DNA from: Candidatus Methanophagales archaeon
Lineage (GTDB): Archaea > Halobacteriota > Syntropharchaeia > Alkanophagales > Methanospirareceae
Assembly: GCA_017883965.1 (NCBI GenBank)
Contig: JAFNKG010000014.1
Coordinates: forward strand, 1 to 40,133
Direction of reading: 5' to 3'
Length of the DNA: 40,133 bases
The notes under the pieces were generated by a model. The model saw only the letters and a list, made by a program, of their open reading frames with translations, had not been told where the DNA came from and did not search any database. The translations under genes and the position numbers were made by a program. Numbering within the stretch: position 1 is the first letter of the stretch; each line of letters opens with the position of its first letter. Of the stretch, positions 5,770-34,817 are shown piece by piece.

Positions 5770-6648
5770 TTATCGTTGCTGCCACTTCTCTTTTGTCCTC
5801 TTCCTGATTACCTGACCTATTCTCATCATCTCTTCTGGTGGTAATGGCTCAGGAACTGAAGTCTGCGTGTTAGTGTAGATTCCCAGAGCTAACTCCCGGA
5901 ACAAATCGGCAATATCGCTATTGGGGTCATATTCAATCACGGTATTACCCTCAATCTCTGATTCTGCGACCTGATGTGCGTTAGGGACATGTCCAATAAC
6001 TTGCGACATGACTTTTTCTGCGAAGTCGTGAACGACTGCTTCGTCGTCAAGCATGCCTCTGACATTATAGACAATACCACCTAATGGAGACCCCCCTTTG
6101 GTTGCGAACTCGCTGATACCTTTGCAAATGTTGTTTGCAGCGTAAAGAGCAAGATAATCCGCTGATGTTACAATATAGACCTCATCTGCCAAACCTCTCC
6201 GCAGGGGCATCGCAAAACCACCACATACTACGTCTCCCGGCACGTCATATATCACCACGTCCGGCATTAGTTCTTCGAAGGCATTCAGCCTCTTAAGCAA
6301 ATCTATCGCAACGATGACGCCTCTACCAGCGCATCCAACACCCGGTCTTGGACCTCCACACTCTGCACAGTAAACACCCCTGTAACCTTTGTAGAGGACT
6401 TCATCAAGCTCGATTTTATTTCCTTCTACCAGCCCTTCAAGACCCAACTGCTCTATACCTTTATCGCGTGATACATCGAGAATGGTCGGTATCTGTACCT
6501 CGCCTGTCAGATTTCTGGTGCAATCTGACTTGGGGTCACAGCCAATCATCATCACCGATAGTCCATGTTCAGCCAATGCAGCCACAATGTTTGACCCTAT
6601 CGTTGATTTTCCAATTCCGCCTTTGCCATAAAACGCTATTTGTCTCAT
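5770..6648 (-). CDS. cfbC: NifH-like iron-sulfur ATPase, probably CfbC (Ni-sirohydrochlorin a,c-diamide reductive cyclase reductase)
   Basis: Family members are homodimeric ATP-dependent reductases passing electrons to a NifD-like partner. CfbC serves coenzyme F430 synthesis; BchL and NifH are relatives. [16 protein letters not shown] is the P-loop. The two cysteines that hold the shared [4Fe-4S] cluster are present in [10 protein letters not shown] (Cys106) and [11 protein letters not shown] (Cys142), and CDPKSDCTR is the second nucleotide motif. The track start is a TTG 21 codons upstream; the ATG beginning at the P-loop strand fits the family. It lies about 100 bp behind an ABC operon, with its own TATA/inverted-repeat region. 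No CfbD partner is in the window, so BchL-like or other roles remain possible. Confidence 0.8.
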
Positions 6649-6704
6649 ATAGACTAAAGGGTTCTTGATATTTTTGTCTCTTAGATATTTCAGGTCTCTT
6701 ACCA

Positions 6705-6723
6705 ACAACAAATAATATGTTGT
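6705..6723 (-). promoter_or_regulatory. Inverted repeat over a TATA-like core upstream of cfbC
   Basis: ACAACA-AATAATA-TGTTGT is a 6-7-6 perfect inverted repeat. Its spacer on the minus strand (TATTATT) resembles a TATA box placed about 60 bp before the cfbC ATG. A repressor at this site would block TBP. Which protein binds is unknown. Confidence 0.4.
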
Positions 6724-6750
6724 GAAACTTTATTAAGCATTAGCTCGAGC

Positions 6751-7524
6751 TTAATTCACTTCAACGCTTCTAAAAAAGTACGTGCTTAAACATATCATAA
6801 AGGCACAAAAACATACTAAAACGAACAGGTCCAGGGTTAGAGAGAAATGCGCCATCCCAATTAGACTGTACCGCAGTCCATCAACACCGTATGTTAACGG
6901 ATTGATGTAGGTCAAATATTTTAGCCAGAGCGGCAATTGCTCTAATGGAAATAATGCGGAGGATAAGATAAAAATAGGAAACGTGAATAGACTCACTATT
7001 AAATGAAAACCCTGCATGTCATTTATTATTGATGCGAATATCAGTCCCAAACAAACAAATGAAGTAGCAATTAGAATCATGCAGATTACAGAGGATAATA
7101 ATCCTAAAACTCCTGTTATCTTGAATCCAATCCCCACCGCGATTAGCAATATTAGAAATCCTTGTAGTAGTGCCGTTGTCATCCCCCCCAGTGTTTTGCC
7201 TAAGGCAATAGAGACCCTGCTAACTGGTGTAACCATTATTTCTTTCAAGAATCCAAACTGTCTATCCCAGATAACGGACATCCCACTCGTAATTGAATTG
7301 AAAAGCAAAACCATTCCAATAATGCCCGGTGCAAGAAAAGCGATATAATCGATTCCTGGTGGCATGTCGGAGAATTTAAAAGCAGCGTTAAAGCCCATCC
7401 CTAAAAAGACAAGAAAAAAGAGCGGCATCGCCAATGAACCAATGAGTCTGCTTCTTGCCCTGAAAAACCTCTTCATTTCCCTGAGCCAGATGGTATAGAT
7501 TGCAGTAAAATCAATTAATTTCAT
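6751..7524 (-). CDS. ABC-2 type transporter permease (DrrB-like)
   Basis: A 257-residue integral membrane protein with about six hydrophobic segments. Its N-terminus, FTAIYTIWLREMKRFFRARSRLIGSLAMPLFFLVF, is the ABC-2 family pattern: a cytoplasmic basic helix followed by the first span. Later segments include GIIGMVLLFNSITSGMSVIWDRQFGFLKEIMVTPVSR and ALGKTLGGMTTALLQGFLIL, the conserved coupling regions. The start ATG overlaps the stop of the upstream ATPase gene by 4 bp, so the pair is a translationally coupled exporter. The substrate is unknown. Its placement behind the chelatase/importer genes suggests an export function linked to metal or tetrapyrrole handling, but this is inference. Confidence 0.9.
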   Translation of the reverse strand: MKLIDFTAIYTIWLREMKRFFRARSRLIGSLAMPLFFLVFLGMGFNAAFKFSDMPPGIDYIAFLAPGIIGMVLLFNSITSGMSVIWDRQFGFLKEIMVTPVSRVSIALGKTLGGMTTALLQGFLILLIAVGIGFKITGVLGLLSSVICMILIATSFVCLGLIFASIINDMQGFHLIVSLFTFPIFILSSALFPLEQLPLWLKYLTYINPLTYGVDGLRYSLIGMAHFSLTLDLFVLVCFCAFMICLSTYFFRSVEVN

Positions 7525-8537
7525 CTTTTTCCTCCCATTCTCATACTTGCTTTTGCTTTCATTCTATTTTGCTCTTTTGCACTTGCCTCTTGCTCTCTGA
7601 TCGTTCTTCCGGTGAAATGTAAGAAGACATCTTCTAAAGTCGGTTTGCGCAAACTAACAGAGTGAACAAAAACGCCATCTTCATGGGCAAGATGCATTAT
7701 CCGCGGTATCATCTTTTCACCATTTTCCACACTCAAAAATAAAAAATCATCATGCAATTTCATTTCTTTTATGAACTCAAATTTTGATAACATATCTGAA
7801 AAGTTTCCACCATCAGAAACCCGTAAAGATATTATATCCTCACCAATAGCGTTTTTCAGGTTGTTTGGCTTATCTAATGCGATTATTTTGCCATGATCAA
7901 TGATTGCAACTCTGTCACAAAGATAATCCGCCTCCTCCATGTAGTGAGTGGTTAAAACAACCGTTACCTTTTCTTCTTTGTTTAATCTTTTGACATACGC
8001 CCAAACGCGCCGCCGTGTCTGAGCATCTAAACCAAGAGTTGGCTCATCTAAAAAAAGAACCTTGGGATAGTGCATTAGTCCGCGAGCAATTTCTAATCTT
8101 CGCTGCATTCCGCCTGAATAAAATTTAACGAAAACTTTTGCTCTATCGTTTAGCTCAACCAAATCAAAGACTTCATTGATTCTCCTTTCTCGCTCCTCTC
8201 TGTTTAGACCATACATTCTGGCATGAAAATCCAGATTCTCTCTACCCGTTAATTCCGTGTCCACACTGGGGTCTTGAAAAACGATGCCAATAGACCTTCT
8301 CACTGCATCCTGTTCCTTTAGAATATTGTGGTGCCATACTTCTGCAAAACCAGAGGTGGGTTGAAGTAAAGTAGCCAGCGTTTTGATTATTGTCGTTTTA
8401 CCCGCTCCATTCGGACCAAGTAAACCAAATATTTCGCCCTTTTCAATGTTAAGATTGATATTACTAACCGCTGTAAAATCACCAAACTTCTTGCTAAGTT
8501 CCTCGATTTCTATTGCATATTCCATTTGCTTTCGCAT
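7521..8537 (-). CDS. ABC transporter ATPase (DrrA-like)
   Basis: A 338-residue ATPase partner of the ABC-2 permease. It has Walker A GPNGAGKTT, Q-loop VFQDPSV, signature YSGGMQRRLEIARGL, Walker B VLFLDEPTLGLD and switch His in LTTHYMEEAD. The long C-terminal extension (about residues 230-338) ending in HSVSLRKPTLEDVFLHFTGRTIRE is typical of the DrrA/exporter group. The start lies 28 bp inside the preceding FecE-type gene, with GGGAAGGG just upstream. An internal ATG (MEYAIEI) is the alternative. It is part of the same operon as chlID and the FecCD importer. Confidence 0.92.
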   Translation of the reverse strand: MRKQMEYAIEIEELSKKFGDFTAVSNINLNIEKGEIFGLLGPNGAGKTTIIKTLATLLQPTSGFAEVWHHNILKEQDAVRRSIGIVFQDPSVDTELTGRENLDFHARMYGLNREERERRINEVFDLVELNDRAKVFVKFYSGGMQRRLEIARGLMHYPKVLFLDEPTLGLDAQTRRRVWAYVKRLNKEEKVTVVLTTHYMEEADYLCDRVAIIDHGKIIALDKPNNLKNAIGEDIISLRVSDGGNFSDMLSKFEFIKEMKLHDDFLFLSVENGEKMIPRIMHLAHEDGVFVHSVSLRKPTLEDVFLHFTGRTIREQEASAKEQNRMKAKASMRMGGKR

Positions 8538-9325
8538 GTTCCCTTCCCATTTTGTTTTACGGGTCTTATAGGCACGATGTACGGTCTTCCGTTGTTATTG
8601 TTCACCTCAGCTTCCACACCGTAAACCCATTTTATATTATCCGGCGTAAGGACAGAAACCGGGTTGCCTGCGGCAAAAATCTTACCGCTATTCATCATTA
8701 GTATCCTATCGGCGTATCTTGAAGCTAAGTTAAGGTCGTGGATAGCCATTATAGCCGAGATCCCCTTTTCTATCACGATGTTTTTTATGATGCCCATTAC
8801 TTCAAGCTGGTGTCTGATGTCGAGGTTGGAGGTAGGCTCATCGAGCAAAAGGACATCAGGCTCTTGTGTGAGTGCGCGTGCAATGAACACCTTCTGCTGC
8901 TGACCGCCGCTGAGTTCATTAATGTCACGCATGGCGAGTTCTTCGATGTTCAGCATCTGTAGAGTCTCTAAAGTCTTTTCAGTGTCTTTTTCACTGCTTC
9001 GCCAGTCGAGATGAGGACGTCTGCCCATGAGAACAGTATCGAAGACCGTAGCAGGGAAGACCTGGGAAGTACTTTGCGGGATATACCCCATTTTTTTGGC
9101 AAGTTCCATTAGACGCATATCTTTTATATCCCGCTCATCCAGTAGTATGAGTCCGCGCTGAGGCTTTAAAATCCGGTCTATACATCTGATCAACGTAGAT
9201 TTCCCAGCTCCATTTGGACCAACAACGCCTAACATCTCCGATTCAGCAAGCTCTATGCATACCTCCTTGAGTACCGACACGCTTGCATAGCTGAACTCCA
9301 CATCTTTTACTTTTAGTTTCGCCAT
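8510..9325 (-). CDS. ABC transporter ATPase for siderophore/haem/corrinoid import (FecE/BtuD type)
   Basis: A 271-residue ATPase of the metal-chelate importer group. It shows Walker A GPNGAGKST, the family segment GYIPQSTSQVFPATVFDTVLMGRRPHLDW, signature ELSGGQQQKVFIARAL, Walker B VLLLDEPTSNLD and switch His IMAIHDLNLASRYAD. The pattern FPATVFDTVLMGRRPH is typical of FecE/BtuD/HmuV proteins. It follows the FecCD-type permease by 15 bp, so the two form one importer. The matching binding proteins are encoded about 15 kb away in this window. The substrate could be a corrinoid, haem, another tetrapyrrole or an iron chelate; sequence alone does not decide. Confidence 0.92.
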   Translation of the reverse strand: MAKLKVKDVEFSYASVSVLKEVCIELAESEMLGVVGPNGAGKSTLIRCIDRILKPQRGLILLDERDIKDMRLMELAKKMGYIPQSTSQVFPATVFDTVLMGRRPHLDWRSSEKDTEKTLETLQMLNIEELAMRDINELSGGQQQKVFIARALTQEPDVLLLDEPTSNLDIRHQLEVMGIIKNIVIEKGISAIMAIHDLNLASRYADRILMMNSGKIFAAGNPVSVLTPDNIKWVYGVEAEVNNNNGRPYIVPIRPVKQNGKGTCESKWNMQ

Positions 9326-9340: not shown

Positions 9341-10471
9341 TCACCAATACTCTTTTCTTCTTCTTATTAACAAGAAGAATAAAAACGGACCTCCTGTCAG
9401 GGCTGTAACAACTCCTACGGGGAGGATTACGGGTGCCATGATTGTTCTTGCTACAATATCACAGGCGAGTAAAAAAGCGCCGCCGAAAAGACCCGATGCA
9501 GGAATTAAAAACCTGTTATCCCCTCCGATAATTATTCTGCATATATGCGGGACAACCAATCCTACAAATCCAATGGTTCCGGTGAAGCATACGATGGCTG
9601 CGGTTAGCAAGGACGCAAGTATCAATACAAATATTCTGGTTCGCTCGACATTTACGCCGAGGCTTTTCGCAGTCTCATCTCCAGCACCCATTACATTGAC
9701 ATCCCACGACTTCCATATAAGCGGGATAACGCAGCCTATAAGCACGGCAGGCACCGGGCCTGGAAGGGGTATAGAAACTTGACCTAGATTTACGTGGAAG
9801 ACAATCTCATCCCATGATGTTTTTCCAAGACTGCCAACCATCCAGAAGTATGCTGCTTTTACCGCTTCTGATTCGGAAAAATAATTTATTAAGTGTGTCA
9901 GCGCAGAAAAGATATACATCATCGCAATACCAGCGAGAATCATTGTCTCGGGTGTCGCTCTTTTGTAGCGTGTCAATCCGAGGATAATAAAAGTTGGAAT
10001 CAAAGAGAAGACAAATGCATTTCCTATTATGAGATACTTCCCAGCGACAAAACCTGCACCTAAACAAATGGCGATAACAGCACCAAATCCCGCACTGGAT
10101 GCGATTCCCAACGTAAATGGACTTGCAAGTGGATTTCTTAAAATCCCTTGCATCATCGCGCCTGCAATTGCAAGCCCTGTGCCAGCTAAGATCCCCATTA
10201 TGATGCGTGGTAATCTCAAGTTCCAGACGACAATCTCTTTGGTCGTTTCGGGATTTTTAAATAGACCATGCCAGATTATTGAATATACCTCAGTGACTGT
10301 GATAGGATAAGAGCCAAGCGTTGCGGATACGCCTGCGATAATAAAAATTAAGACGAGGGTAGAGAAAATAAATAGAATTTTTCTTCCGATAAACTTTTTG
10401 TATTGCTCTTTTATTTCCGCTCTCTTAGTTCTCGTTCCAGATATGGTCTCAGTGCTCGATGCCATTTTCAT
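9341..10471 (-). CDS. FecCD/BtuC-type ABC importer permease
   Basis: A 376-residue membrane permease with about ten hydrophobic segments. Diagnostic FecCD sequences are [60 protein letters not shown] and [21 protein letters not shown]. It works with the FecE/BtuD-type ATPase and extracytoplasmic binding proteins to bring in metal chelates such as vitamin B12, haem or siderophores. The start overlaps the chlID stop by 4 bp (ATGA), so import and chelatase genes are translationally coupled. Its cytoplasmic N-terminal 26 residues ([14 protein letters not shown]...) have a decayed copy at 19205-19285, behind cobN copy 2. Confidence 0.94.
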
Positions 10472-12543
10472 CCCAAAACAGCCTGTAAATCATTCGATAA
10501 GCTTCGCTCTCGCTCCTGAATCACAACATCCCGCACTGCCTGCGATGTTAAATCAGCGACGGGATAATATTTTCCCCCTGAATAGCTCGCTATATCTCTG
10601 CAATATCCAAGCTGCATTTGTATGAATGATTTATTAACTGCCTCGGTATCAATCACAATCACATGTATGCCCTTAGCACGTGCCTGCTCAGCGAGCGCTA
10701 ACAACTCCACTTTAATATCTTTATTTGAAGATGAAACATTTGCACGACCGTCAGAGATTAACAGCAGGATAGGTATCGCTCCTTCATCCCTCTGCTTTTC
10801 ATTCATCAGAAGATTTAATCCTCTTTCCAGACCTGCTGATAGAGGTGTTCTTCCGCCAGTAGGGAGTTCCTTCAAGCTTTTATATGCTAAATCTACGCTT
10901 GAACATAGAGGAAGCAAAACATCTGCCTGGTTACCTCTAAACGCAACCATTCCAACCTTGTCTCTTTGTTGATACGAATCCAGTAATAAAGAGAGGACAG
11001 CACCTTTCGCACTCTCCATTCTTCGATTCGCACCCATTGAACCAGAGGCATCCACAACAAACATCGTTGCTGTTGACAGTTTTCCTACACGAATCTTCTC
11101 TCGAATATCCTGAGTTGTTATAACAACAGCTAAATCAGAATCAGCCCTTCGCTCTTTCTGGTAAGGTGCCGCAGCACGTATCGTAGCATCAAGTGCAACG
11201 TCCTTTATTTCTCCTTTCGGGAATCCATAGCGCACATACTTCCCGTTATTGCGAAGAGAGAGCGTGGGTATTCTTCTTCCAGAGATTTTCCTGCGATATA
11301 TCCTGTCTTTCTTTTCTTTTTGTCTTACTACTTTTGTATCAATCGGATCGCCGATGTCAAAAACAAACTCCTTCTGTGGTTCTTTTTCGTTCTTAATATC
11401 ATTGTTGTTAGCATCTTCACTTTCTGGATTTGTGGGAGTGTGTTGATGTTCGTGTTCTTTCCTTTGCTGTTGATCATTCTCTTGTTTCTCACCTTTATGC
11501 TGCTCTTTTGTGTCTGACATCATATCATCGAGTTTTTCAGTATCCAAACTTGGCGGCTCAAAAGGCTTTCTGCGCATTCTGTGCGGAAGTGCTAATTCCA
11601 TCGCCTCTTTTATGTCCTCAAAAGTGACTTTTTTTCTGCTATCAAGTGCAGCAATCGTTTTTGCCGCTCTGGTTATAACGATTTCAGCTCTGTGTGTCCT
11701 GACGCCGAGTTTAATGCAGGTATCTGCGGTTAGTTTCAGTAAATCATCGCTAATCTCCACATCATTAACCATTTGTTTCGCTTGCACAATTTTCTCTCTC
11801 AACCCTTTTTGTTTTTCCTCGAATCGCTCTTCGAACTCTCCCGGGTCCCTTTCAAAACCTTCTACCAGCTTCACTATTTCTACCCTTTTCTCTGCATCAT
11901 CTATACTTTCCACGCTTGCTTGAAGACCAAATCTATCCAGGAGTTGAGGTCTGAGCTCGCCTTCCTCAGGGTTCATTGTCCCCACCAGAATGAATTTAGA
12001 GGGATGAGAAACCGAGACACCTTCTCTCTCGACAACATTTATAGACATCGCAGCCGAATCCAAAATGACATCTGCAACGTGGTCATCTAAAAGATTTACC
12101 TCGTCAATATAGAGAATGCCTCTATTTGCAGCAGCCAATATACCCGGCTCCAGCGCCTTTATTCCCTCTTTTATTGCCTTTTCAACATCTATTGAACCCA
12201 CGACGCGGTCCTCGGTAGCACCTAACGGGAGGTCTATGACCCACATCCTTCGCTTCGCCGCTTCCAGATTTTCACCATTCGTTTTTTCGGGGTAGCATAG
12301 GTCGCACATCTCCCTCTCGTCATAAGGATTGCAATTGAACGGACATCCGTTAACCACCTCGATCTCCGGTAACAGTTCTGCAAGTGCCCGAACGGCAGTG
12401 GACTTCGCAGTTCCTTTCTCGCCCCTTATAAGCACTCCGCCTATCCTTGGGTTAATAGCGTTCAAAATAAGCGCTTTCTTCATCTTCTCTTGCCCTACAA
12501 TCGCCGTAAATGGCAATATCTCCCTTCTAACGTGGTGCGTCAT
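10468..12543 (-). CDS. Chelatase ATPase/vWA subunit, fused ChlI-ChlD
   Basis: This AAA+ motor subunit of class I metal chelatases drives the CobN/ChlH large subunit. From the ATG at 12543 it has 691 residues. PFTAIVGQ is followed by Walker [10 protein letters not shown] (41-49) and a cysteine group CPFNC...CDLC (Cys67, 71, 80, 83). Walker B is GILYIDEVN (142-150). A hydrophilic Gln/Glu/His linker covers about 345-400. The vWA domain carries the MIDAS motif DASGSMG (about 498-504). The track start 22 codons upstream is too close to the TATA box; the chosen ATG has AGGGTGAG before it. It heads the operon with FecCD, FecE and the DrrAB-like pair. One such subunit could serve both CobN copies. 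Confidence 0.93.
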
Positions 12544-12610
12544 TTTTTTTCTCACCCTTTCTTTTTTTTCCTTCTTTGTTTTTAACTGTTCGAGATAATA
12601 TAATAACATT

Positions 12611-12715
12611 TAATTTGATGTGCATAGTCATATTAAAAGATTTTTGGTTTTATTAAAATCATATATATTTATATATTGAGATACAAAAAGCATAAAATAA
12701 AAAATTTTGTAAGAA
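12611..12715 (-). promoter_or_regulatory. Promoter block A of chlID, near-identical to block B
   Basis: Read on the minus strand, about 105 bp here match 27778-27883 at roughly 90 percent by eye. Contained are an ATATATAAATAT run, an inverted repeat GATTTT-N10-AAAATC, and a BRE/TATA-like CAAAAATC...TTTAATAT followed by GACTATG. TATA at about 12629-12637 predicts transcription starting near 12607, giving a leader of about 65 nt before the chlID ATG. The distal half matches what, in block B, is the promoter of the divergent cobN operon. Here it runs into the end of a convergent gene. Confidence 0.75.
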
Positions 12716-12722
12716 AATAATT

Positions 12723-13694
12723 TTAGATTACCAGTAATGCTATTATGAATAGCACATCTATGGCAAGCGTTGTCGCAGCATTTACCGCAACCGTCTTGCT
12801 TCCCAATTTAGGACCAAAAAGCGACACATGCAAGGGTAATGAATGTTTTACAAATTTTGTAGAGAATGATACCACATTGCCCAGTAATAGAGCGATTAGC
12901 ACCCCTTTTGTCGAAATCAATCCTTTACCCATAAGGCTGCCTGCAAGGATTAGCCCGGAATAAGTGTTCACAATCTCGGTTGCGCTGATTATAACGACTT
13001 CGCTTTCCAATTCCAAGATATTTGTGAAAGGTTCCAAAATTGTAGAAAATGAATCGAACACGTTCAGCTCCATCGCCACTGATACCAGAAACAGGGTGAT
13101 GAACATCGTGGGCACAATCCTTTTGAGCATTTTGTATGTGCTCATAGCGCTTTTATTCAATTCCTGTTTTTTATCCTCAATTGGAGCATTGTCATGAGTG
13201 GTGGATAACTGCGGTTTGGCTGAAAAAGCATTAGCGTCTTTTAGCCATATTCGTGCAAGAAATATTCCAAAACACGTTTTCAAGAATGCTACAAGCCCCA
13301 TCAGGCACGCATAAATTGACCCGGTAGTGAGGCCGAGAATAGGAATCACCACAGGTATGTAAAACGTGAAGAGGTGATAGAGGCTGCTTGGAAAGGAACT
13401 GATTACCGTGGTTGCGATGACTTCTCGCTCGGAAATCATTTTCTCGTTCAGTCTATCAGATAGCATGGAGTAACCAGCAGTAGTGCTAAACGTGCACGTT
13501 ACCACCGAGAGCGCCGATAGCGTGCTGATATTCGCTTTACTGGAAAGAGGTTTGATTAGCCTGTCGAACTTTTTCATCAGCCCGAGGTTAACTGCAAAAC
13601 TCGTCGCAAAAATGCCTATGGCTATGACAGGAACAATTTTTGCCACCCAGTAAAGGGCATATATCAGGGAGGTATATATAATATAGCTAATCAT
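12723..13694 (-). CDS. Nucleoside-recognition (Gate) domain membrane protein
   Basis: A 323-residue integral membrane protein with about eight hydrophobic segments. The segments VPVIAIGIFATSFAVNLGLMKKFD, VTCTFSTTAGYSMLSDRLNE and the second-half repeat SEVVIISATEIVNTYSGLILAGSL show the Gate (nucleoside recognition) pattern, with two related halves separated by a hydrophilic loop near residues 165-185. Gate proteins are thought to be transporters or transport-associated; the substrate here is unknown. It is not overlapped with neighbours. Its stop codon lies 8 bp from promoter block A of the chelatase operon. A role in moving a metal or tetrapyrrole is only a context guess. Confidence 0.75.
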   Translation of the reverse strand: MISYIIYTSLIYALYWVAKIVPVIAIGIFATSFAVNLGLMKKFDRLIKPLSSKANISTLSALSVVTCTFSTTAGYSMLSDRLNEKMISEREVIATTVISSFPSSLYHLFTFYIPVVIPILGLTTGSIYACLMGLVAFLKTCFGIFLARIWLKDANAFSAKPQLSTTHDNAPIEDKKQELNKSAMSTYKMLKRIVPTMFITLFLVSVAMELNVFDSFSTILEPFTNILELESEVVIISATEIVNTYSGLILAGSLMGKGLISTKGVLIALLLGNVVSFSTKFVKHSLPLHVSLFGPKLGSKTVAVNAATTLAIDVLFIIALLVI

Positions 13695-13814: not shown

Positions 13815-13844
13815 TTTAAATAGTTGAATCACAAGTATATACTT
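13815..13844 (+). promoter_or_regulatory. TATA box and 12-bp palindrome before ATPase gene
   Basis: TTTAAATA (13815-13822) is a good archaeal TATA box, placing transcription initiation at or next to the ATG at 13845. The perfect palindrome AAGTATATACTT (13833-13844) ends exactly at that start codon, where a bound dimer would block initiation of a leaderless message. Confidence 0.5.
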
Positions 13845-23056: not shown

Positions 23057-23953
23057 TTATTGGCCTTCTTTAATTTTTAGGTTAGTCAACGGCTTTGCGA
23101 TAATGTCAACACTGCTTGGATAGCCACCAAGTTTATCAATAAGTTCTAATCGTCTGATATTCGTATGCTCTTTGCCTTGTGCTGCTACTGAGTTCATCCA
23201 TACATTCTTTGGCAGAATAACCGGAGTCTCTGATATAATTTCAAATCCACAATCGTAGAAAATTTCATCGAGCTCCGAGCGATAGTACGATTTTAATATC
23301 CGATAAAAAGGTATCTTTTCGCCTTCCTTATTGGTGATAGAGCCTATCGGTTTCAGTCCTTTTTTATTCTCAATGGATGGATGACGGGTAAGATAGAAAC
23401 ATCCTGTATCTCTATCGAAAAAATCCTCCGCAAAGCAGTACTTTTCTCTAATTTCTCCGCTAAGAACGTTAGCCCGGAATAAACCATTAGGAGCGAGTTT
23501 TCGCCTGAATACTCTGAGCGCAGCCAACGGATTAATGTCCTGAAAAGCATTGACCATGATAATCCGGTCAACAGAGCCATCCGGAATCTCGAACAGCGGA
23601 TCGTAATCCACATCAGCACAGATGAAGATTACTTCTACTTCTGTTTCTACATCCCGAATGCGTTCTCTTACCAGGTTCAACATCCCTCCGGACATATCTA
23701 CAATATAATATTTTTTGAGTTCTCTCCTCTTCCTTACAACCGCTTCGGCAAACTCACCCCTACCTGGTCCAACCTCCATTGCAGTTCGTGATTCCACAAA
23801 CCAATCAGTTGCAGATTTTATCCACTCCGGGTCGTTTACCGGACTTGGAAAGTGACGAGGCTGGGCAATTGCTGCCACAGCCTCATAATATTCCGGATAC
23901 ACCTTCTTCCCGGTTTCTGTTCTTTCAGTCTCTATCATGTTCTTAATTTCCAT
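23057..23953 (-). CDS. Class I SAM-dependent methyltransferase
   Basis: A 298-residue soluble protein. Motif I AMEVGPGRGEFAEAV (about 57-71) binds S-adenosylmethionine; YYIVDMSGGML is the acidic loop region and PDGSVDRIIMVNAFQDI the later strand. The N-terminus has EYYEAVAAIAQPRHFPSP. The fold is a Rossmann methyltransferase, but the substrate is not identifiable. It is wedged between a binding protein (11-bp overlap) and cobN copy 2 (one-base gap), so co-translation is strongly implied and its substrate may be the imported or chelated tetrapyrrole. GGAGGAG lies 8 bp before ATG, supporting this start. BchM is the analogous neighbour in chlorophyll synthesis, though no specific BchM similarity was recognised. 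Confidence 0.85.
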   Translation of the reverse strand: MEIKNMIETERTETGKKVYPEYYEAVAAIAQPRHFPSPVNDPEWIKSATDWFVESRTAMEVGPGRGEFAEAVVRKRRELKKYYIVDMSGGMLNLVRERIRDVETEVEVIFICADVDYDPLFEIPDGSVDRIIMVNAFQDINPLAALRVFRRKLAPNGLFRANVLSGEIREKYCFAEDFFDRDTGCFYLTRHPSIENKKGLKPIGSITNKEGEKIPFYRILKSYYRSELDEIFYDCGFEIISETPVILPKNVWMNSVAAQGKEHTNIRRLELIDKLGGYPSSVDIIAKPLTNLKIKEGQ

Positions 23954-27777: not shown

Positions 27778-27883
27778 TTCTTACAAAATCTATTTTTTTA
27801 TGCTTTTTGTTCTTCTAATATATAAATATGTATGATTTTAATAAAACCGAAAATCATTTAATATGACTATGTATATCAAATTA
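27778..27883 (+). promoter_or_regulatory. Divergent promoter block B, near-identical to block A
   Basis: This intergenic block drives both the plus-strand S-layer-like gene and, from its left part (GCATAAAAAAATAG on the minus strand), the cobN operon. On the plus strand CCGAAAATCATTTAATAT resembles BRE plus TATA at 27849-27864, predicting a start near 27886. The inverted repeat TGATTTT-N10-AAAATCA overlaps it and is a good operator candidate. About 105 bp are shared with 12611-12715 upstream of chlID. Confidence 0.75.
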
Positions 27884-27915: not shown

Positions 27916-30237
27916 ATGAAAGGTGTTAAGAAAGGAATATTGGAACTGGAAAAAGTAACGGTTGGAATGTTAGTGGTAGCAGTGGTGATGACTTTTGCAT
28001 TCGTGACGTTGATGCCATCTGCATCGGCAAAAGTAGTCCCGGCAACGCAGACTATAACAAGCTATGGGCAAGACTTCGTTGTCAACTACGACAATATTAC
28101 CATCTGGCTGGACGGAACCAAGTCATCGGCAATCGTTGGTCAAGTGATACAGTTCTACAATGCCACTGGTAATGCCTCTGGGAAGGTGACGTTAACCGGG
28201 ATTAGCGAGAACAACGCCGGTGAGGTGAAGTTCTCAGACCCTAATGGAAGGATAGATATATCAGGGATAAAGACGGGTGATTATAATGTCACGGGGGAAC
28301 CCGATGCCATAGGATGTAATGCAACGGTGATCAGTGTCGGTGAGGGAACTACGGAGTTAAAGCTGAAGAAGGGAACTAAAACAATAAGCAGTATCCCACA
28401 AGGAACTCGAATCACGGTAAAGTTTACTACTTCCTTAGACCCGAACGATGGGGTAACCTTGAAAGTGACTTACCCCAACGGTGATACGATGAAAGTAAAT
28501 CCTGCTGATGCCAACGCAGTCTTCGATAAAGTCAACGTTTTCCATGTCACCGACTTGGAAATAAATACCGCCGCAGGATGGGAACTTGGAATTTATAAAT
28601 TCAAAGTTTCCACTGAGGAGGAGTATGCACGTGGGCTGCGAAAGGACAGTGACGAGGTAAAATTAGAGATAGTGAGCCCTGAACTTAAGATAAAAGCGGA
28701 GAAGACGGAAGTGGTGGTGTCGGAGAAGGTTAAGTTGACAGTGACAGGCGTGCCTGACCACAACATTTCCATTTACGTAGAGAGGGGTGCAGAACATGCT
28801 ACGTTCCCTGGCGGTATAAATGATAACCCCGCAGGAAACAAAATTGGCAATCTTAGCGACTTGATGATAGACGCCGACGGCAAGAGTGAATATGTAGTCT
28901 ATTTTGATAAGATAGGCTCTTACACGGTGAAAGTAAGGGATTTGGATACTACTCCTCAAACTGAGTATTCCGTTGACATATCAGTTTCAAAAAAGAAGGT
29001 TACGTTCACCATGCCCGAGACATGCGCAATAGGAGCTGACCTTGTGATTAACGGAACGGCAAACACCGGAGATACCGTGGATATTGCCATCGAAAACCGA
29101 ATTGTGAAGGATGATGCGGCGATTGATAAGGGTAAGTTTGAGGTGAAGCTACTAACTCCTGCTACCTCAGGAACAGGCACCGAAGGCGCCATAAAGATAA
29201 AGGCATTCATAGATGGTGACTTTACCGATGGGGACGATGTTTCAGGTGTCCAGGATGACGGCTCAGCAATGGTATTGATGATAGTAGGTGATTTGACTGC
29301 GGAATCATCCTCTACATTAGTTTCACCGGGCGATTCATTTACGCTCAGCGGCACCGCAGCCGGCTCAAAAGTGGTGGACGTCCTCACTGTTGCCCCGAAA
29401 GGCGGCGGTGGAAACGGCATGAATCCAACGAATTCTGAAGATAACGGTCTGCCTCATGGAATTGTTTATGAAGCGGCATCTGTAAGCGGCGACTTTACGT
29501 GGTCCGTTGACATTGACGTTAACGAAGACGCTGACACCGGAACATATCTCGTGTTCGTGCTGAGTCCCGGGAGGAACAAGATATACGATGGGATTAGGAC
29601 TGGCGAGTTGCTGGACGGCATAGGAGCGAAGTATTTCGGAGGTGACCTCTTCAGGCTTGCAGGAAAGACACAGGAACAAATAAATGCCACACTCTGGGAC
29701 GGAACCATTGGCACTGCGGGCAGCGACGACTTCATGAAGAAATTTACAATAAAGATCGGGACGGCAGAAGTGAAACTATATTCAATTGCGGATGTAGTTA
29801 TTGGCGATGACCTGGTGGTTACCGGAACCTCAAACAGAGACGGACATTCCATCATTGTCAAGGTGAAAGGACCGGTAAACCTCGGAACGAAATTCGCAAC
29901 GGTTGAAAATGGTAAATTCAAAGCCACTTTCAGCACTTCCGAAGCTTTAACCGGTGAATATACCATAGAAGCAGATGACGGCGAAGGACACGGGGATGCA
30001 ACAACCGTAAACGTCATCACGCCAGTTCGAACAGAGGCATCGCCCACACCCACGCCAACAGCAACTCCAATGCCGACAACATCTCAGGAGATGCCAGCAA
30101 CACAAGCAGCAGCACAACTGGAGAACTCGTCAACGTCTACTTCGTCAGAGCTGCCGGGGTTCGAGGCGGTATTTGCGATAACAGCGTTCGCGGTGGTGTA
30201 TCTGCTCGTATTAGTGTCAAGAAAGAAACGGAATTAG
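27916..30237 (+). CDS. Large S-layer-like surface protein with PGF-CTERM tail
   Basis: A 773-residue exported protein. A long basic N-terminus and hydrophobic segment (VTVGMLVVAVVMTFAFVTLMPSASA, cleavage near residue 38) is followed by Thr/Asn/Asp-rich beta domains. These include ITIWLDGTKSSAIVGQVIQFYN, a region around KIKAEKTEVVVSEKVKLTVTG, and repeated units beginning with phrases such as DLVINGTANTGDTVDIAI and DLVVTGTSNRDGHSIIVKVKG. The final unit is homologous to the C-terminal domain of the divergent protein at 26383. A Thr/Pro linker (TPTPTATPMP) precedes LPGFEAVFAITAFAVVYLLV and RKKRN, the archaeosortase signal. Several N-x-S/T sites suggest glycosylation. AGGGGTGAT is the ribosome site. 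Likely cell-envelope component co-regulated with the chelatase operons. Confidence 0.88.
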   Translation: MKGVKKGILELEKVTVGMLVVAVVMTFAFVTLMPSASAKVVPATQTITSYGQDFVVNYDNITIWLDGTKSSAIVGQVIQFYNATGNASGKVTLTGISENNAGEVKFSDPNGRIDISGIKTGDYNVTGEPDAIGCNATVISVGEGTTELKLKKGTKTISSIPQGTRITVKFTTSLDPNDGVTLKVTYPNGDTMKVNPADANAVFDKVNVFHVTDLEINTAAGWELGIYKFKVSTEEEYARGLRKDSDEVKLEIVSPELKIKAEKTEVVVSEKVKLTVTGVPDHNISIYVERGAEHATFPGGINDNPAGNKIGNLSDLMIDADGKSEYVVYFDKIGSYTVKVRDLDTTPQTEYSVDISVSKKKVTFTMPETCAIGADLVINGTANTGDTVDIAIENRIVKDDAAIDKGKFEVKLLTPATSGTGTEGAIKIKAFIDGDFTDGDDVSGVQDDGSAMVLMIVGDLTAESSSTLVSPGDSFTLSGTAAGSKVVDVLTVAPKGGGGNGMNPTNSEDNGLPHGIVYEAASVSGDFTWSVDIDVNEDADTGTYLVFVLSPGRNKIYDGIRTGELLDGIGAKYFGGDLFRLAGKTQEQINATLWDGTIGTAGSDDFMKKFTIKIGTAEVKLYSIADVVIGDDLVVTGTSNRDGHSIIVKVKGPVNLGTKFATVENGKFKATFSTSEALTGEYTIEADDGEGHGDATTVNVITPVRTEASPTPTPTATPMPTTSQEMPATQAAAQLENSSTSTSSELPGFEAVFAITAFAVVYLLVLVSRKKRN

Positions 30238-30371
30238 GAATGTGTATGTAGGGTGTAAAAGAAAATTTCAGCCATAGGATGGGGTTACATCCATCCTTTA
30301 TGTTTTTTTCATCAGGTCTTTCAGAGGAAAAAATGTGTCCTTTCACTTTCGTAATGCAAACATATACCGCA

Positions 30372-30380
30372 ATCTTTATA
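30372..30380 (+). promoter_or_regulatory. TATA box of second AAA ATPase gene
   Basis: TCTTTATATC lies about 30 bp before the ATG at 30407, so the transcript would begin at or within a few bases of the start codon (leaderless). This supports the internal ATG over the GTG start used in the track. Confidence 0.45.
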
Positions 30381-30406
30381 TCTACTTTGCTTACTATATT
30401 TGCATC

Positions 30407-31777
30407 ATGGATAAAGAGTTCATAATCAGTTACCTGAAAACGAGAAACTACTGGTGGCAAACCCGAGAAGTATCGGCTGCGGACAAAGGTATTGTCAGGC
30501 ACGAATACCTCGAAAAAATACGTGAGATTGAGAAGCTGGAAAGAATAGTATGCCTGTCGGGAATAAGGCGGAGCGGTAAGACAACAATACTGTACCAGTG
30601 CATTGACCATCTCTTGAAAAACGCAGATGCAGAGCCGCAAAAGATCGTCTATGCTAAAGTTGACGACCTCCTGGGGAAAATAGACTCCATCCACGATATC
30701 CTGAACATATACCACGAACTCACCGGAATAAATCCGGTCGAGGAGAATGTATACATCTTGTTGGATGAAATACACGTCCAGAAAGAATGGCAACTACAAT
30801 TAAAATACTACCTTGACGCTCATGCAAAATGCAGGTTTGTTGTATCCGGGTCATCAAAGACACTGCTCTACAAGGATGCTTCCGAGAGCCTTGCCGGAAG
30901 GATAAGGTTTATAGACGTTTTCCCACTGACGTTTAAGGAATTCCTGGAGTTCAATGGAATAACTCTGCCAAAAGAGACAATACAAGTCAGTATTGATAAT
31001 TTTAAGCAAATAGAAAGTGCATACTTCGCTGTAGTTACGCAAAAACAACGGTTGTCCTATCTCCTGAATCAATATTTCGATATAGGTGGGTATCCCGAGT
31101 GGTTCAAAATCAAAGACATGGAGCAGTGGCGCAGAGTTCTTGTTGATGACTACTTCTCACTCATTTTATTCCGCGACATCGTCAGCGTATTCAGGGTGAA
31201 GGACCCTCTACTGCTTGAGAAGCTGGTAAGAGATATCGCCGTATTTTCTACCAATAGGTTCTCATATAAGGGTTTATCTGAACGATTGGGCATGGACCGG
31301 GAAACTTTGAAGCTCTACCTGTATTATCTGCGGAGTTCCATGCTCATATCAATAGCCGATGTCTATACCTATGCAAAAAAGGCAGTTGAGAAACGAGAAA
31401 AAAAGCTCTACTTCTGCGAAGAGGGTCTGAGAAGGGCTCTCACTCTCGATAGAGACGACGGTAAATCCGCGAAAAATGTCGTGGCATGGCATCTCATTAA
31501 AAGGGGCTACCGTTCAAAGGTGTTTTTCGAGCCCTATTACTGGAAAAACAAGCATGAGGTAGATTTTATCTATGACGATTCGGAACTCGTTCTTCCGGTT
31601 GAGGTGAAGTATCGCGAACACCCCGTATCAGCCGATACGAGAGGGCTCATAGAATTCATGCACACATTCAACTTGAACCAAGGGATAATCGTGACCAAGG
31701 ACATGCTTAAGAAAGAGATAATCGCTGGCAAGGAGATAATCTTCATTCCTCTCTGGCTCTTCCTGCCGCTTCTGTAG
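30407..31777 (+). CDS. AAA ATPase with DUF4143-type C-terminus
   Basis: A 456-residue cytoplasmic ATPase. Walker A is GIRRSGKTTILYQ, Walker B VYILLDEIHVQKEW and the sensor-like segment RFVVSGSSKTLLYKDASESLAGR; the following VFPLTFKEFLEF is typical of the AAA_14/DUF4143 family. A winged-helix-like part (YKGLSERLGMDRETLKLYLYYLRSSMLI) precedes a nuclease-like fold with KHEVDFIYDD...LPVEVKYRE. The track start (GTG, 24 codons upstream) is less likely than this ATG after a TATA box. Function unknown; such genes are common, patchily distributed and often near mobile or defence DNA. It stands between the two surface/binding-protein operons. Confidence 0.87.
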   Translation: MDKEFIISYLKTRNYWWQTREVSAADKGIVRHEYLEKIREIEKLERIVCLSGIRRSGKTTILYQCIDHLLKNADAEPQKIVYAKVDDLLGKIDSIHDILNIYHELTGINPVEENVYILLDEIHVQKEWQLQLKYYLDAHAKCRFVVSGSSKTLLYKDASESLAGRIRFIDVFPLTFKEFLEFNGITLPKETIQVSIDNFKQIESAYFAVVTQKQRLSYLLNQYFDIGGYPEWFKIKDMEQWRRVLVDDYFSLILFRDIVSVFRVKDPLLLEKLVRDIAVFSTNRFSYKGLSERLGMDRETLKLYLYYLRSSMLISIADVYTYAKKAVEKREKKLYFCEEGLRRALTLDRDDGKSAKNVVAWHLIKRGYRSKVFFEPYYWKNKHEVDFIYDDSELVLPVEVKYREHPVSADTRGLIEFMHTFNLNQGIIVTKDMLKKEIIAGKEIIFIPLWLFLPLL

Positions 31778-31784: not shown

Positions 31785-31809
31785 ATAAAACTTTTCTTAA
31801 AAGTTTTAT
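31785..31809. terminator. Bidirectional hairpin between convergent genes
   Basis: ATAAAACTTTT and AAAAGTTTTAT form a perfect 11-bp stem with loop CTT, 7 bp after the plus-strand ATPase stop and 3 bp from the stop of the minus-strand binding protein gene. A/T tracts on both arms fit a terminator working in both directions. Same design as 3837-3863. Confidence 0.65.
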
Positions 31810-31812
31810 GGT

Positions 31813-33054
31813 TCAACTCCCTTCCATTGCCGGATACACAAACACCCCATGCTTTGTCACGTCGAAGTCTATACCACAGAATTTATCTATATATTCCTGA
31901 TGGATTGCTTGCGGGTCTAAATCCTCGAATTCTTCTGGATAAAACCACTTTGCCATGTATGCGAGACCAATCGGATATCCGGGAGCAAATGGAACACTGC
32001 TATCCTTCAAATAAACGTGCTCGTCTTCCACAGCCGTAATATTACCAAATTCGAGGAGTTCTATTATTCTTTCATACTCTTCCTCTATCCCTGATTCATC
32101 GTCGGTCTCGTAACCCCCACTGCTTGAAAGCCCGACGATAACTTCTGGATTATGGTCTAAAATCCACCCTAAATCTACTTCCGGATATGTTCCCTCAAGG
32201 TCTGCTTCTGTTGCTATGTTTATCCCTCCTGCGCGCTCACAAAGCGTGCTTATTCCACCTGATTGTTCCGTATAGGTCTTTCGCACCTTCGTTGACTCCT
32301 CGCCGCTCATGTCCAGGAAAACTTTGAGCCTCTCATCCTCTGGAATTTTCGACACTTTATCCTCTATTTCGTCAACGTATCCATCATGCCATTTGATATA
32401 TTCGGATGCGTTCTTCTCTTCGTCAAGTAAATAACCGAGCGTTCGCATTTCATCTCTAAGTGTTTCCGGCTTGTATAAGTCAAATCGAATGATGGTTATT
32501 GCGGGCAGTAACTTGTCCTCCAGCTTTTCTGGACTTTGCCATTCTGCATACGCAAATACTGCATTTGGCTCCAATACTACTACTTGCTCAACATCGGGAC
32601 CATACCACATCCCAACAGATAGTTTCTCGCTCAGCTCAGGGAAGAATGTATGCGCTTCTTTTATATTTTCAGTAACGCCGACTATCCTGTCCTTAGCACC
32701 TAAAGCACGAATCGCTTCCACTGCGTCTGGATTTAGCGCGACTATCCTCTCCTGTGGCTTGTATATCGTCACGAGTCTTCCAGCAGAATCTGTGATTTGC
32801 CGTGGGTACTGTGGATAATAACTCGCAATTTCCTTCAGTTCTCCTGATGAAAGACAATCTATTTCCTCGTCAAGATACCGCACTCTAAGATACCGCATGA
32901 GTTCATTGGCAAGCACTTCTCTCGCTACTTCTTCTATTTCTTCAACTGTGGAAGGCACACTGTTCTGTTTTTGCGCCACCGCCGGCATAACTGCCAACAG
33001 GAAACATAGCGCAAGAAACACCAGCACCAAAAGACAAGACAATATTTTATTCAC
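31813..33054 (-). CDS. Metal-chelate ABC transporter substrate-binding protein, third copy
   Basis: A secreted binding protein of 413 residues. The signal peptide MNKILSCLLVLVFLALCFLLAVMPAVAQ is followed by a helical module (EVLANELMRYLRVRYLDEE...SSGELKEIASYYPQYPR). The BtuF/FepB-like domain starts at ITDSAGRLVTIYKPQERIVALNPDAVEAIRALG. The C-terminus DPQAIHQEYIDKFCGIDFD...GVFVYPAMEG is nearly the same as in the copy at 23943. It is the last gene of a three-gene operon and overlaps the preceding surface protein by 8 bp. It has no permease next to it and may share the FecCD/FecE importer at 8510-10471. Confidence 0.9.
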   Translation of the reverse strand: MNKILSCLLVLVFLALCFLLAVMPAVAQKQNSVPSTVEEIEEVAREVLANELMRYLRVRYLDEEIDCLSSGELKEIASYYPQYPRQITDSAGRLVTIYKPQERIVALNPDAVEAIRALGAKDRIVGVTENIKEAHTFFPELSEKLSVGMWYGPDVEQVVVLEPNAVFAYAEWQSPEKLEDKLLPAITIIRFDLYKPETLRDEMRTLGYLLDEEKNASEYIKWHDGYVDEIEDKVSKIPEDERLKVFLDMSGEESTKVRKTYTEQSGGISTLCERAGGINIATEADLEGTYPEVDLGWILDHNPEVIVGLSSSGGYETDDESGIEEEYERIIELLEFGNITAVEDEHVYLKDSSVPFAPGYPIGLAYMAKWFYPEEFEDLDPQAIHQEYIDKFCGIDFDVTKHGVFVYPAMEGS

Positions 33055-34207
33055 TTTTTCTTTTTCTCTTTCCCTTTCTCTTTCTCAAAAATAGATACAC
33101 TATCCCTGGCACAAGCAGTCCAGCAAATGCGAATACTGCTCCAAACCCCGGCGGTAATTTCGATGCCGATGTTAAACTCGAAGAAGTTGCAGAAGTTTGT
33201 GATGCTGTTAGAGCTTCAAAAGAGGTTTCAGATTGCTCTTCTAATAGCGATTCCCCTCTCCCTTCCTCAGCAGAACACGGCATTCTCACGTATATCGGTT
33301 TTGATTCGTGTTTATTTATCCCATTCTTATAAACCGCCTTAAACTTGATTCCCCCTTCCTCAGCGTTATTGACTTTAAATACCGCGGTAGCCGAGTCGCC
33401 AGACTTTATACTGCCAATATATACTTTTTCTGGCTGGCATTCCGCTCCACTTGCATTTGAACCCACAGCAAGAACATAGACGCTATTAACATCGGATAGC
33501 CCTTCATTTATAACTTCTAATCTAATTTCGTGCTGCGAAACTTCCAGCGGCAATATGTTCAATGTGCCCTCAACGATAACAGGAATATAATAACGAATCC
33601 CTTTGCTGCTTTTGCCGTCCATATCCTCGATGTCCACAATGAATTTCAGCATGTATATGCCCTCCTCAAACGGCGCCTTTATCTTAAATGCTAAATCAAC
33701 TTTTTCATTCGGTCCTATTACACCAGCAGAGACATACCTGTTATAGACTTTGAAGTCATTCTCGGCAATGTAAGCTTCTTTTATGTATGCGTCCATTGTG
33801 AATCTTGTCTCGGCGTCAATATCTATCGTTCGCGTTACAGGTTCAATTTTTTCCTCTATTGTATGTTCCCTTATTGGTCCCTGACTCCCACTCGTTCTCT
33901 CTATCTCTTTTGTTGTCTCTTCCTTTATCGTATAGTTCCCCACTATCTCATCCTTTATATCTACATCCTTCTCTATCGGCTTATCTTGCATATTCTTAAG
34001 CGTTATCGTAAGCACACCTACATCACCGGGCATTAACGTCTCCGGGCTGAATTCGTAATCATACACCATTGCAGATGGTTTTGGGTCTGGAGCGACTGCA
34101 CACCTCTCTAACAGGTCGTCCACTTCATCTGCGAAAACTAAATTCGCGGAAGAAAACAAGACCAACACAGATAACAGGCAAAAAAATACCGCTTTTAACT
34201 TATTCAC
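33047..34207 (-). CDS. PGF-CTERM surface protein with CARDB/COG1361-like domains
   Basis: A 386-residue exported protein with a signal peptide (MNKLKAVFFCLLSVLVLFSSANLVFA). The segment YDYEFSPETLMPGDVGVLTITLKNMQDKPIE is the opening strand pattern of S-layer-related COG1361/CARDB beta domains. A second such domain (LEVSQHEIRLEVINEGLSDVNSVYVLAVG) follows near residue 225. A Ser/Thr-rich linker precedes LPPGFGAVFAFAGLLVPGIVYLFL and a very basic tail, a PGF-CTERM variant with PGFG in place of PGFE. Genes on both sides overlap by 8 bp, so expression is coupled with the binding protein. Probably a cell-surface scaffold; the ligand is unknown. Confidence 0.82.
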   Translation of the reverse strand: MNKLKAVFFCLLSVLVLFSSANLVFADEVDDLLERCAVAPDPKPSAMVYDYEFSPETLMPGDVGVLTITLKNMQDKPIEKDVDIKDEIVGNYTIKEETTKEIERTSGSQGPIREHTIEEKIEPVTRTIDIDAETRFTMDAYIKEAYIAENDFKVYNRYVSAGVIGPNEKVDLAFKIKAPFEEGIYMLKFIVDIEDMDGKSSKGIRYYIPVIVEGTLNILPLEVSQHEIRLEVINEGLSDVNSVYVLAVGSNASGAECQPEKVYIGSIKSGDSATAVFKVNNAEEGGIKFKAVYKNGINKHESKPIYVRMPCSAEEGRGESLLEEQSETSFEALTASQTSATSSSLTSASKLPPGFGAVFAFAGLLVPGIVYLFLRKRKGKRKRKSE

Positions 34208-34817
34208 GCTCCTTCACTTCACCTCCTTTTCTCCTGAATGAAACCAGAACTGCTACTGCAAAGAATCCAGCAACCGCAAATACCGCTTCAAATCCTGGTA
34301 CCGGAGGAGAGTGTGCATGCGCAGGAGTTATGGCTGGTGAAGGCGTTGGTATTTCCGTAGCACTCACAGAAACGCTCGTGCTACCAATATTTCCTTCCGC
34401 TTCGTTCAAAGCATCATACCACGTTCCACTGAAAGTCATACTTCCTTCTGCTTCCGATGACGCTTGCACTTTGTATTTTATCACGGTTTCATTGACCAGT
34501 GCAAACACAACCTTTTGTCCTGATATATCAGTTTGATTTGAAGGATGCGCTGTGCTGACAAATGCAAAATCATCTGGAATTGTCTCTACGATGCCGCCGA
34601 TTTGGAGCTTTGTTATGTTCAGCATCACGTCGAATGTTGAACCTGGAGTTGGGCTCGTCGTGGATAATGTGCGTGTTACAGTGGTGCTGGTATCGGCTCC
34701 AATAGCCATAACAATCGGTGCAACAGAGAGCATCGAAATCGGAAGTATCGCTATGCTTAATGTTAGTAACATCCGCGGTATTTTCTTATTATTCTCGTTC
34801 ATGCCCACATTTGCCAT
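34200..34817 (-). CDS. Small PGF-CTERM surface protein
   Basis: A 205-residue exported protein that heads the second surface/binding-protein operon. The signal segment is at about 15-42. Its single beta domain (TTVTRTLSTTSPTPGSTFDV, IGGIVETIPDDFAFVSTAHP, FSGTWYDALNEAEGNIGSTS) is homologous to the first domain of the protein at 26383. A short Thr/Pro linker precedes VPGFEAVFAVAGFFAVAVLV and RRKGG, the archaeosortase tail. An internal ATG (MNENNKK) 15 bp downstream is an alternative start. A BRE/TATA-like CCGAAAAATTTAAA lies about 40 bp upstream. Confidence 0.8.
   Translation of the reverse strand: MANVGMNENNKKIPRMLLTLSIAILPISMLSVAPIVMAIGADTSTTVTRTLSTTSPTPGSTFDVMLNITKLQIGGIVETIPDDFAFVSTAHPSNQTDISGQKVVFALVNETVIKYKVQASSEAEGSMTFSGTWYDALNEAEGNIGSTSVSVSATEIPTPSPAITPAHAHSPPVPGFEAVFAVAGFFAVAVLVSFRRKGGEVKERE

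Follow-up and report, generated by a model that had tools for sequence, protein, structure and literature searches.

A conserved importer-chelatase island in an ANME-1 archaeon and its putative role in metallo-tetrapyrrole salvage

Among the systems closest to the locus analyzed here is the corrinoid operon-2 of Dehalobacter restrictus, which encodes FepBCD, two CbiZ proteins, CobN and Mg-chelatase subunits, is controlled by a riboswitch and responds to corrinoid starvation with a 346-fold increase of its first gene and an average 46-fold increase of its proteins (PMC4285132). HmuS, the haem de-chelatase of hmu operons, has the motif LSLDHxxEFMGG in domain V, whose His and Glu point at the metal; the His of DLDH and that of GTHG face the bound cation (PMC12583661). 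The head/neck haem ligands of HmuS are Met79 and His254. BtuS is a third CobN-like type, for which a role in metalloporphyrin salvage was proposed (Rodionov, 2003, cited in PMC6460266). Here we describe a 29-kb island (positions 5770–34817) on contig JAFNKG010000014.1 (C33) of a Candidatus Methanophagales archaeon, a member of the anaerobic methanotrophic archaea (ANME) group ANME-1; the whole 40,133-nucleotide stretch (40 kb) is referred to as the window. Its source is the metagenome-assembled genome (MAG) G000 (2.48 Mb in 136 contigs, 92.7% complete, 1.3% contaminated). The island combines a FecCD-FecE importer and three secreted binding proteins (PBPa, PBPb, PBPc) with a fused ChlI-ChlD motor (ChlID) and two CobN-type chelatase large subunits, CobN1 and CobN2, and we regard it as a new, archaeal variant of the corrinoid/metalloporphyrin salvage operons.

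The island resembles Dehalobacter operon-2 in that a FecBCD-type importer, CobN and ChlI/ChlD-type genes form one cluster (PMC4285132), a likeness of gene set. Clostridial operons found in the present analysis have a gene set of the same kind, plus a cobalamin riboswitch. Unlike operon-2, the island has no CbiZ and no riboswitch, and adds two CobN clades, PGF-anchored surface proteins, a Gate-domain membrane protein and the DrrAB exporter. CobN2 shares with HmuS the PF02514 family, the GTHG and DLDHxxEFxGG motifs and its place in an uptake locus (PMC12583661), but is predicted to be cytosolic and is accompanied by ChlID. With BtuS the window proteins have in common that they are CobN-like and tied to salvage rather than biosynthesis (PMC6460266), whereas BtuS1/2 of B. 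fragilis are predicted to be exported and membrane-anchored and the window proteins are neither. The CobNST and CobN-ChlID cobaltochelatases have a large subunit of the same superfamily and an AAA+/VWA motor, but their active site is Asp-Asp, where CobN1 has Cys-Cys and CobN2 Asp-His.

The import-plus-chelatase island is real and conserved. The whole G000 genome encodes a single FecCD permease, a single ChlID motor and three PF01497 binding proteins, all of them in the island, which also holds two of the three CobN proteins; the probability of such clustering within 29 kb under random placement is ~2e-11, a rough estimate that takes the genes as independent. Among 14 ANME-1 genomes examined, 13 bear ChlID, and in 10 of these FecCD lies within 6 kb of it (chance ~1e-15). 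FecCD or a binding protein is found within 10 kb of 42/57 CobN loci of the types represented by CobN1 and CobN2 (CC- and DLDH-type, see below), compared with 4/35 other CobN/BchH loci (Fisher 6e-9), values that are indicative, since the loci lack phylogenetic independence and some few of them were read twice. An uninterrupted run of PGF protein, two binding proteins, Gate, CobN1, ChlID, FecCD and FecE is present in G005, and related gene sets occur in Methanothrix, Methanoregula, Methanocella, Methanolinea, Myxococcota, Nitrospirota, Bacteroidales and Clostridia. Importer, binding proteins and CobN/ChlID thus adjoin in many relatives and in distant bacteria, as an earlier reading of the window from its letters alone (the sequence-only reading) had expected of a joint system. 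The Gate protein, which might act as a permease for metals or solutes, occurs within 10 kb of 14 of the 30 CC-type CobN loci and recurs beside CobN1/ChlID, and DrrAB adjoins CobN1-type genes in archaea and in loci of Myxococcota, Nitrospirota and Thermodesulfobacteriota. CobN2 is 92% identical to its counterpart in a Methanophagales MAG, the base composition of the window is even except for the last 2 kb, outside the island, and a plasmid search with CobN2 returned only distant CobN/BchH matches. That the island works as one import-plus-chelatase unit is, in our judgment, highly likely.

Gene identities were assigned by Pfam and NCBIfam profile searches of the window proteins, and the features of the island are as follows:

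5770–6711, - strand: NifH-family reductase (group IV type), probably CfbC (PF00142, 324 bits; NF009701, 440 bits, over cut-off)
6751–8537, - strand: DrrB/DrrA ABC-2 exporter pair (TIGR01247 and TIGR01188, over cut-off)
8510–9325, - strand: FecE/BtuD-type importer ATPase (below every NCBIfam cut-off tried)
9341–10471, - strand: FecCD/BtuC-type permease (PF01032, 291 bits)
10468–12609, - strand: fused ChlI-ChlD AAA+/VWA chelatase motor (TIGR02442, 798 bits, over cut-off)
12610–12722, - strand: shared intergenic element, copy 1, upstream of ChlID (89% identical to copy 2)
12723–13694, - strand: Gate-domain membrane protein (PF07670, two stretches)
13824–15263, + strand: ATPase
15365–19105, - strand: CobN1, class I chelatase large subunit of the Cys-Cys clade (PF02514, 1307 bits; PRK05989.2-4, 1804 bits)
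19209–19285, - strand: relic of the FecCD 5' end (82% identical to 10395–10471)
19282–23055, - strand: CobN2, class I chelatase large subunit of the HmuS-motif clade (PF02514, 1178 bits; BchH model, 991 bits)
23057–23953, - strand: class I S-adenosylmethionine (SAM) methyltransferase (PF08241)
23943–25187, - strand: binding protein PBPa (PF01497, Peripla_BP_2)
25184–26386, - strand: binding protein PBPb (PF01497, Peripla_BP_2)
26383–27753, - strand: PGF-anchored surface protein, surfY-like beta-sandwich and PGF-pre-PGF domain (TIGR04213, 110 bits, over cut-off)
27778–27883, + strand: shared intergenic element, copy 2, between the PBPa/PBPb/CobN2 operon and the S-layer-like gene
27916–30237, + strand: S-layer-like PGF-CTERM protein (NF041431, 48 bits against a 600-bit cut-off; PGFEA tail)
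30335–31777, + strand: AAA_14 protein
31813–33054, - strand: binding protein PBPc (PF01497, 88 bits)
33047–34207, - strand: PGF-anchored surface protein surfX (N-terminal hydrophobic segment, PGFGA motif, C-terminal transmembrane segment)
34200–34817, - strand: PGF-anchored surface protein surfY, beside PBPc (beta-sandwich in the predicted structure)

Every gene named in the sequence-only reading was recovered at its position, and PGF-CTERM-type tails were found on all four of its surface proteins. Its single contiguous region holds in so far as the genes are all there, but they form several transcription units on the - strand (ChlID-FecCD-FecE-DrrAB-NifH; Gate; CobN1; PGF-pre-PGF/PBPb/PBPa/methyltransferase/CobN2; surfY/surfX/PBPc), broken up by the three + strand genes (13824–15263, 27916–30237 and 30335–31777), and the Gate protein had been overlooked. 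The overlaps of 4–11 bp it described do couple genes within the units (4, 4, 4, 4, 8, 8 and 11 bp), although one, between FecE and DrrA, reaches 28 bp.

The chelatase large subunits were classified with motif tables and a 118-sequence tree, a quick method with rows of uneven composition whose deep branching order is not relied on; four kinds were separated, namely a CC clade, a DLDH clade, the canonical DD cobaltochelatases and BchH. CobN1 belongs to the CC clade (signature HVGTHGNLE and EYDLxGCC[CSG]YFGTHGG), and its active-site stretch (HVGTHGNLE ... EYDLCGCCCYFGTHGG) has Cys-Cys where cobaltochelatases have Asp-Asp. CobN2 (HVGTHGLAE ... DLDHYYEFFGG) belongs to the DLDH clade, characterized by HVGTHG and DLDHYYEFFGG and recovered as a single clade with support 100. 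It contains the superfamily GTHG motif in domain III and agrees with the HmuS domain V motif at 7/10 fixed positions, including the His and Glu, which is kept through the clade. A sequence scan found no signal peptide, membrane segment or Met-rich insertion in CobN1 and CobN2 (in CobN2 no hydrophobic segment, and at most 4 Met in any 60 residues), so that neither is an HmuS by the full definition. The differences of the CobN1 and CobN2 active sites are consistent over dozens of orthologues. The Asp-Asp motif of cobaltochelatases (DSDDYFQYHGG in CobN of Mycobacterium tuberculosis) is absent from CobN1 (LCGCCCYFGTHGG) and CobN2 and is found in CobN3 alone (DNDDYFQYLGG), which is encoded elsewhere in G000 (contig C62) in a cobalamin-biosynthesis (cbi) operon; no cbi-type gene occurs within 10 kb of any CC-type locus.

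CobN2 exceeds the cut-off of the BchH model TIGR02025, but its assignment as a Mg-chelatase was rejected, as it branches apart from six BchH-type proteins of Chlorobi/Anaerolineae and its motif differs. L062 also has NifH and CobN as neighbours; it was discounted as a cluster of the phototrophy type, its CobN being BchH-type. ANME-1 has yet another CobN class (L123-L130, ~1,460-2,045 aa), which is related to CobN3 and in several genomes adjoins CbiMQO-like transporters and three small proteins. The CobN1 of the genus mate G023 is divided between two overlapping frames (L102, 6286–10046), by an assembly frameshift or a real split.

With a FecCD permease, a FecE ATPase and a class III binding protein, the island has the component set of a BtuFCD-type importer, at NCBIfam scores below the BtuFCD equivalog cut-offs (BtuC 227/461 bits, corrinoid ATPase 233/537, BtuF 31/234). 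Part of the evidence on the ligand comes from relatives. The induction of Dehalobacter operon-2 under corrinoid starvation (PMC4285132) speaks for a corrinoid. A cobalamin riboswitch (RF00174) lies upstream of the CobN2-type operon in 9/12 testable loci of Firmicutes/Chloroflexi (L021, L024-L027, L033, L037, L039 and L044), and a B12-riboswitch operon neighbours the Gram-negative CobN1-type operons in 4/6 loci. CbiZ, an enzyme of corrinoid salvage, is present in 10/14 ANME-1 genomes, including G008 and G047, whose sole FecCD adjoins CobN1.

We infer from these comparisons how the island may operate. The PGF-anchored surface proteins and the three secreted binding proteins would capture a metal-bearing macrocycle outside the cell and hand it over to FecCD-FecE, the single importer. 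CobN1 and CobN2, driven at least partly by the single ChlID, would then remove or replace the central metal in the cytoplasm, CobN2 by means of an HmuS-like His pair and CobN1 through a Cys/His site. The macrocycle left over, or another product, may leave the cell through DrrAB. We consider it likely that the ligand is a tetrapyrrole, and somewhat less firmly favour the complete proposal, in which import of a metallo-tetrapyrrole is coupled to cytosolic (de)metallation by CobN/ChlID. A corrinoid of the B12 type is the most likely ligand, with a chance just short of even, and the system would then salvage corrinoid or cobalt.

Several observations weigh against this proposal or its corrinoid form. 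Some ANME-1 CobN1 loci have no importer in the stretch read, the Gram-negative CobN1-type operons are not themselves led by a B12 riboswitch, an Rfam scan of the window gave no match and thus no archaeal riboswitch support, and CbiZ was not found in the G000 MAG, at its completeness of 92.7%. The predicted fold of PBPc (predicted local distance difference test score, pLDDT, 89.9) is nearest to YiuA/FepB-type binders of iron-siderophores, although it did not discriminate between ligands. The TonB receptors beside Gram-negative CobN1-type operons score best on a haem-receptor model, below its cut-off, and CobN2 has the motif of the haem de-chelatase HmuS. These last two points would fit haem-iron mining, in which the cell would take up haem or another iron porphyrin, strip it with CobN2 as an HmuS-like de-chelatase, retain the iron and release the porphyrin through DrrAB. 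FecE agrees with this, its best NCBIfam match being a haem ABC ATPase (236 bits, cut-off 261) ahead of the corrinoid ABC ATPase (233 bits, cut-off 537), and BtuS proteins were up in Methanosarcina barkeri when the iron/sulfur source was changed (PMC10846266). We nevertheless hold haem-iron mining to be unlikely: the membrane anchor and Met-rich insertion of HmuS are absent, HmuS works without ATP (PMC12583661) and yet ChlID is retained in the island, and the same DLDH clade stands under B12 riboswitches in Firmicutes.

The PBPc structure and the difficulty of distinguishing members of the FecCD family by sequence (PMC2667541) leave some room for an iron-siderophore or free metallophore importer that merely adjoins the chelatase genes; we rate this as quite improbable, for the importer and ChlID are sole genome copies co-located with CobN across phyla, which makes mere neighbourhood very unlikely. 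Salvage of F430 (or methylthio-F430), with nickel or the macrocycle recycled from dead ANME/methanogen cells and CfbC as the biosynthetic link, has in its favour that nickel-rich macrocycles are abundant in such mats and that a probable CfbC ends the importer operon. ANME-1 moreover uses a modified F430 (PMC9012536). Against it, the family is also found in bacteria, which make no F430, CfbC is located elsewhere in most relatives, and no island gene besides the probable CfbC is F430-specific, so that we give this explanation only a small chance. Least probable of all is that ChlID and the island CobN proteins serve de novo cobalamin synthesis only, as the motor and as spare large subunits for late cobalt insertion, with their genes placed next to a B12 importer for regulatory reasons. 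ChlID is indeed the sole motor of the genome, which CobN3 must use if it uses any, and NCBIfam names CobN1 a cobaltochelatase; however, the canonical motif and the location in a cobalamin operon belong to CobN3 alone, which makes a de novo role of CobN1 and CobN2 unlikely, and the active sites of these two differ consistently. The three ligands offered by the sequence-only reading fare unequally: a corrinoid or haem-like ligand is plausible (B12 riboswitches, the HmuS motif, CbiZ in most ANME-1), F430 is without direct support, and a siderophore-like ligand, which it had opposed to these, is a less probable candidate suggested by the PBPc fold.

Two sequence features bear on the unity and history of the island. 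A 105-bp element is found upstream of ChlID (12610–12722) and in the divergent promoter region at 27778–27883, with no further full-length copy in the G000 genome. Of the three copies in G023, one precedes ChlID, one precedes the PGF-pre-PGF/PBP operon, and one separates two S-layer-like genes close to a fourth binding protein. The element is a candidate for a promoter or operator used in common, the alternative being a promoter that was duplicated and has no regulatory significance. As it is common to the ChlID operon and the PBP/CobN2 promoter region, we counted it in favour of one unit. Directly behind the CobN2 stop lies a 26-codon relic of the FecCD start (in-frame reading KITSSTETIFGTRAKSVEIKAQYEK, then a stop), which suggests that FecCD once stood directly after CobN2, and appears to record a rearrangement of the island. 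In L005/L160, FecCD lies one gene downstream of CobN2.

In the extracellular part of the system, PBPa carries an EF-hand-like segment at its N-terminus (GDTDGDKIVSRGEL). Binding proteins with dockerins are already known from ABC transporters of ANME (PMC9012536), and binding proteins of relatives match them, with N-terminal dockerins (L103-L105, L005, L009), whereas the window binding proteins keep at most a degenerate half motif. More than 12 such dockerin-bearing proteins are encoded on one 50-kb contig of G027 (C10; L103-L105), around nitrogenase-like clusters and one FecCD-FecE importer. PGF-anchored surface proteins recur beside binding proteins in relatives. The one at 26383–27753 has a PGFEV motif, a C-terminal transmembrane segment and homology to surfY, of which residues 47–151 were modelled (pLDDT near 90); Foldseek matched the model to a CLIPPER domain, BslA and cohesins, and the predicted domain is a beta-sandwich of uncertain kinship. 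A cohesin reading of surfY and PGF-pre-PGF was not confirmed, as Pfam gave no match and cohesins were only among the weaker Foldseek matches. A cohesin domain was seen only in a relative, L149 (CobN island of G042), where a PGF-anchored cohesin protein (157-aa open reading frame from 12445, - strand) stands beside a binding protein.

The window NifH is the only strong PF00142 match in the G000 MAG (92.7% complete), and the only component-1 (PF00148) homologue is CfbD-like (contig C91). Its best-fitting model is PRK13230, and it scores 338 bits on the NCBIfam CfbC model, below the cut-off of 402. Since ANME-1 uses F430 and the window NifH is the only NifH-family partner on hand for CfbD, it is most likely CfbC, and so probably acts in F430 synthesis, in line with the treatment of group IV NifH of ANME-1 as F430-related (PMC9012536). 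The family assignment of the sequence-only reading thus stands, with CfbC as the probable, sub-threshold identity. The gene adjoins the importer in its own genus and in G001 (55%-identical copy) and lies elsewhere in most other relatives; in G005 a NifH-like gene is beside an ECF cobalt/nickel-type transporter. NifH/CfbC is therefore a loose member of the island and, being beside the importer in a minority of relatives, not a structural part of the system. A PF05635 (23S rRNA-intervening-sequence-type) protein at 5322–5726 adjoins the NifH-like gene, as in G023, and similar genes also flank NifH-like genes in L108.

The window methyltransferase family was seen elsewhere in one contig only (L041, where 1–3611 encodes a CobN2-like protein, the methyltransferase and a CobN2-like protein in a row), and it was dropped as a system member for want of conservation. 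Of the proposed envelope system joining uptake, methylation and metal (de)insertion, uptake with the chelatases remains and methylation does not. Loci of the same type in G052, G027, G042, G048 and G024 contain several NifH and PF00148 pairs near FecCD/FecE, binding-protein or Gate genes, together with SAM methyltransferases in those loci that were scanned. In L104 (1458–10686), L098 (11439–19847), L108, L109, L110, L111 and L141, all from ANME-1 relatives, several unclassified NifH-NifDK-like sets and their SAM methyltransferases adjoin FecCD/FecE and numerous binding proteins. None of the PF00148 proteins scanned in relatives reaches any NCBIfam equivalog cut-off, and the FeMo-cofactor Cys and His are missing from the D-like ones, which fits tetrapyrrole-type rather than N2-fixing enzymes. 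We put forward, as an improbable but broader idea, that the ANME-1 island is the core of an undescribed tetrapyrrole economy, in which macrocycles would be imported, demetallated by the Cys-Cys and HmuS-like chelatases and, in relatives such as G052, G027, G042, G048 and G024, reduced by the unclassified NifH-NifDK-like complexes and methylated by the adjacent SAM methyltransferases. The product would be a nickel or cobalt cofactor, either salvaged or new, and of this pathway the window species would have kept import and chelatases, along with the CfbC-like reductase. CobN is not mentioned in PMC9012536.

The archaeal use of many CobN/HmuS/ChlH homologues was called unclear by the 2025 HmuS paper (PMC12583661). 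For methane-oxidizing archaea the present analysis offers a concrete, testable answer, in which two defined chelatase clades are tied to one importer and its binding proteins. If the ligand is a corrinoid or F430, the island would show how these uncultured archaea get hold of scarce metals, cobalt or nickel, in sulfidic sediments, and dozens of archaeal and bacterial genes named 'cobaltochelatase CobN' would need re-annotation.

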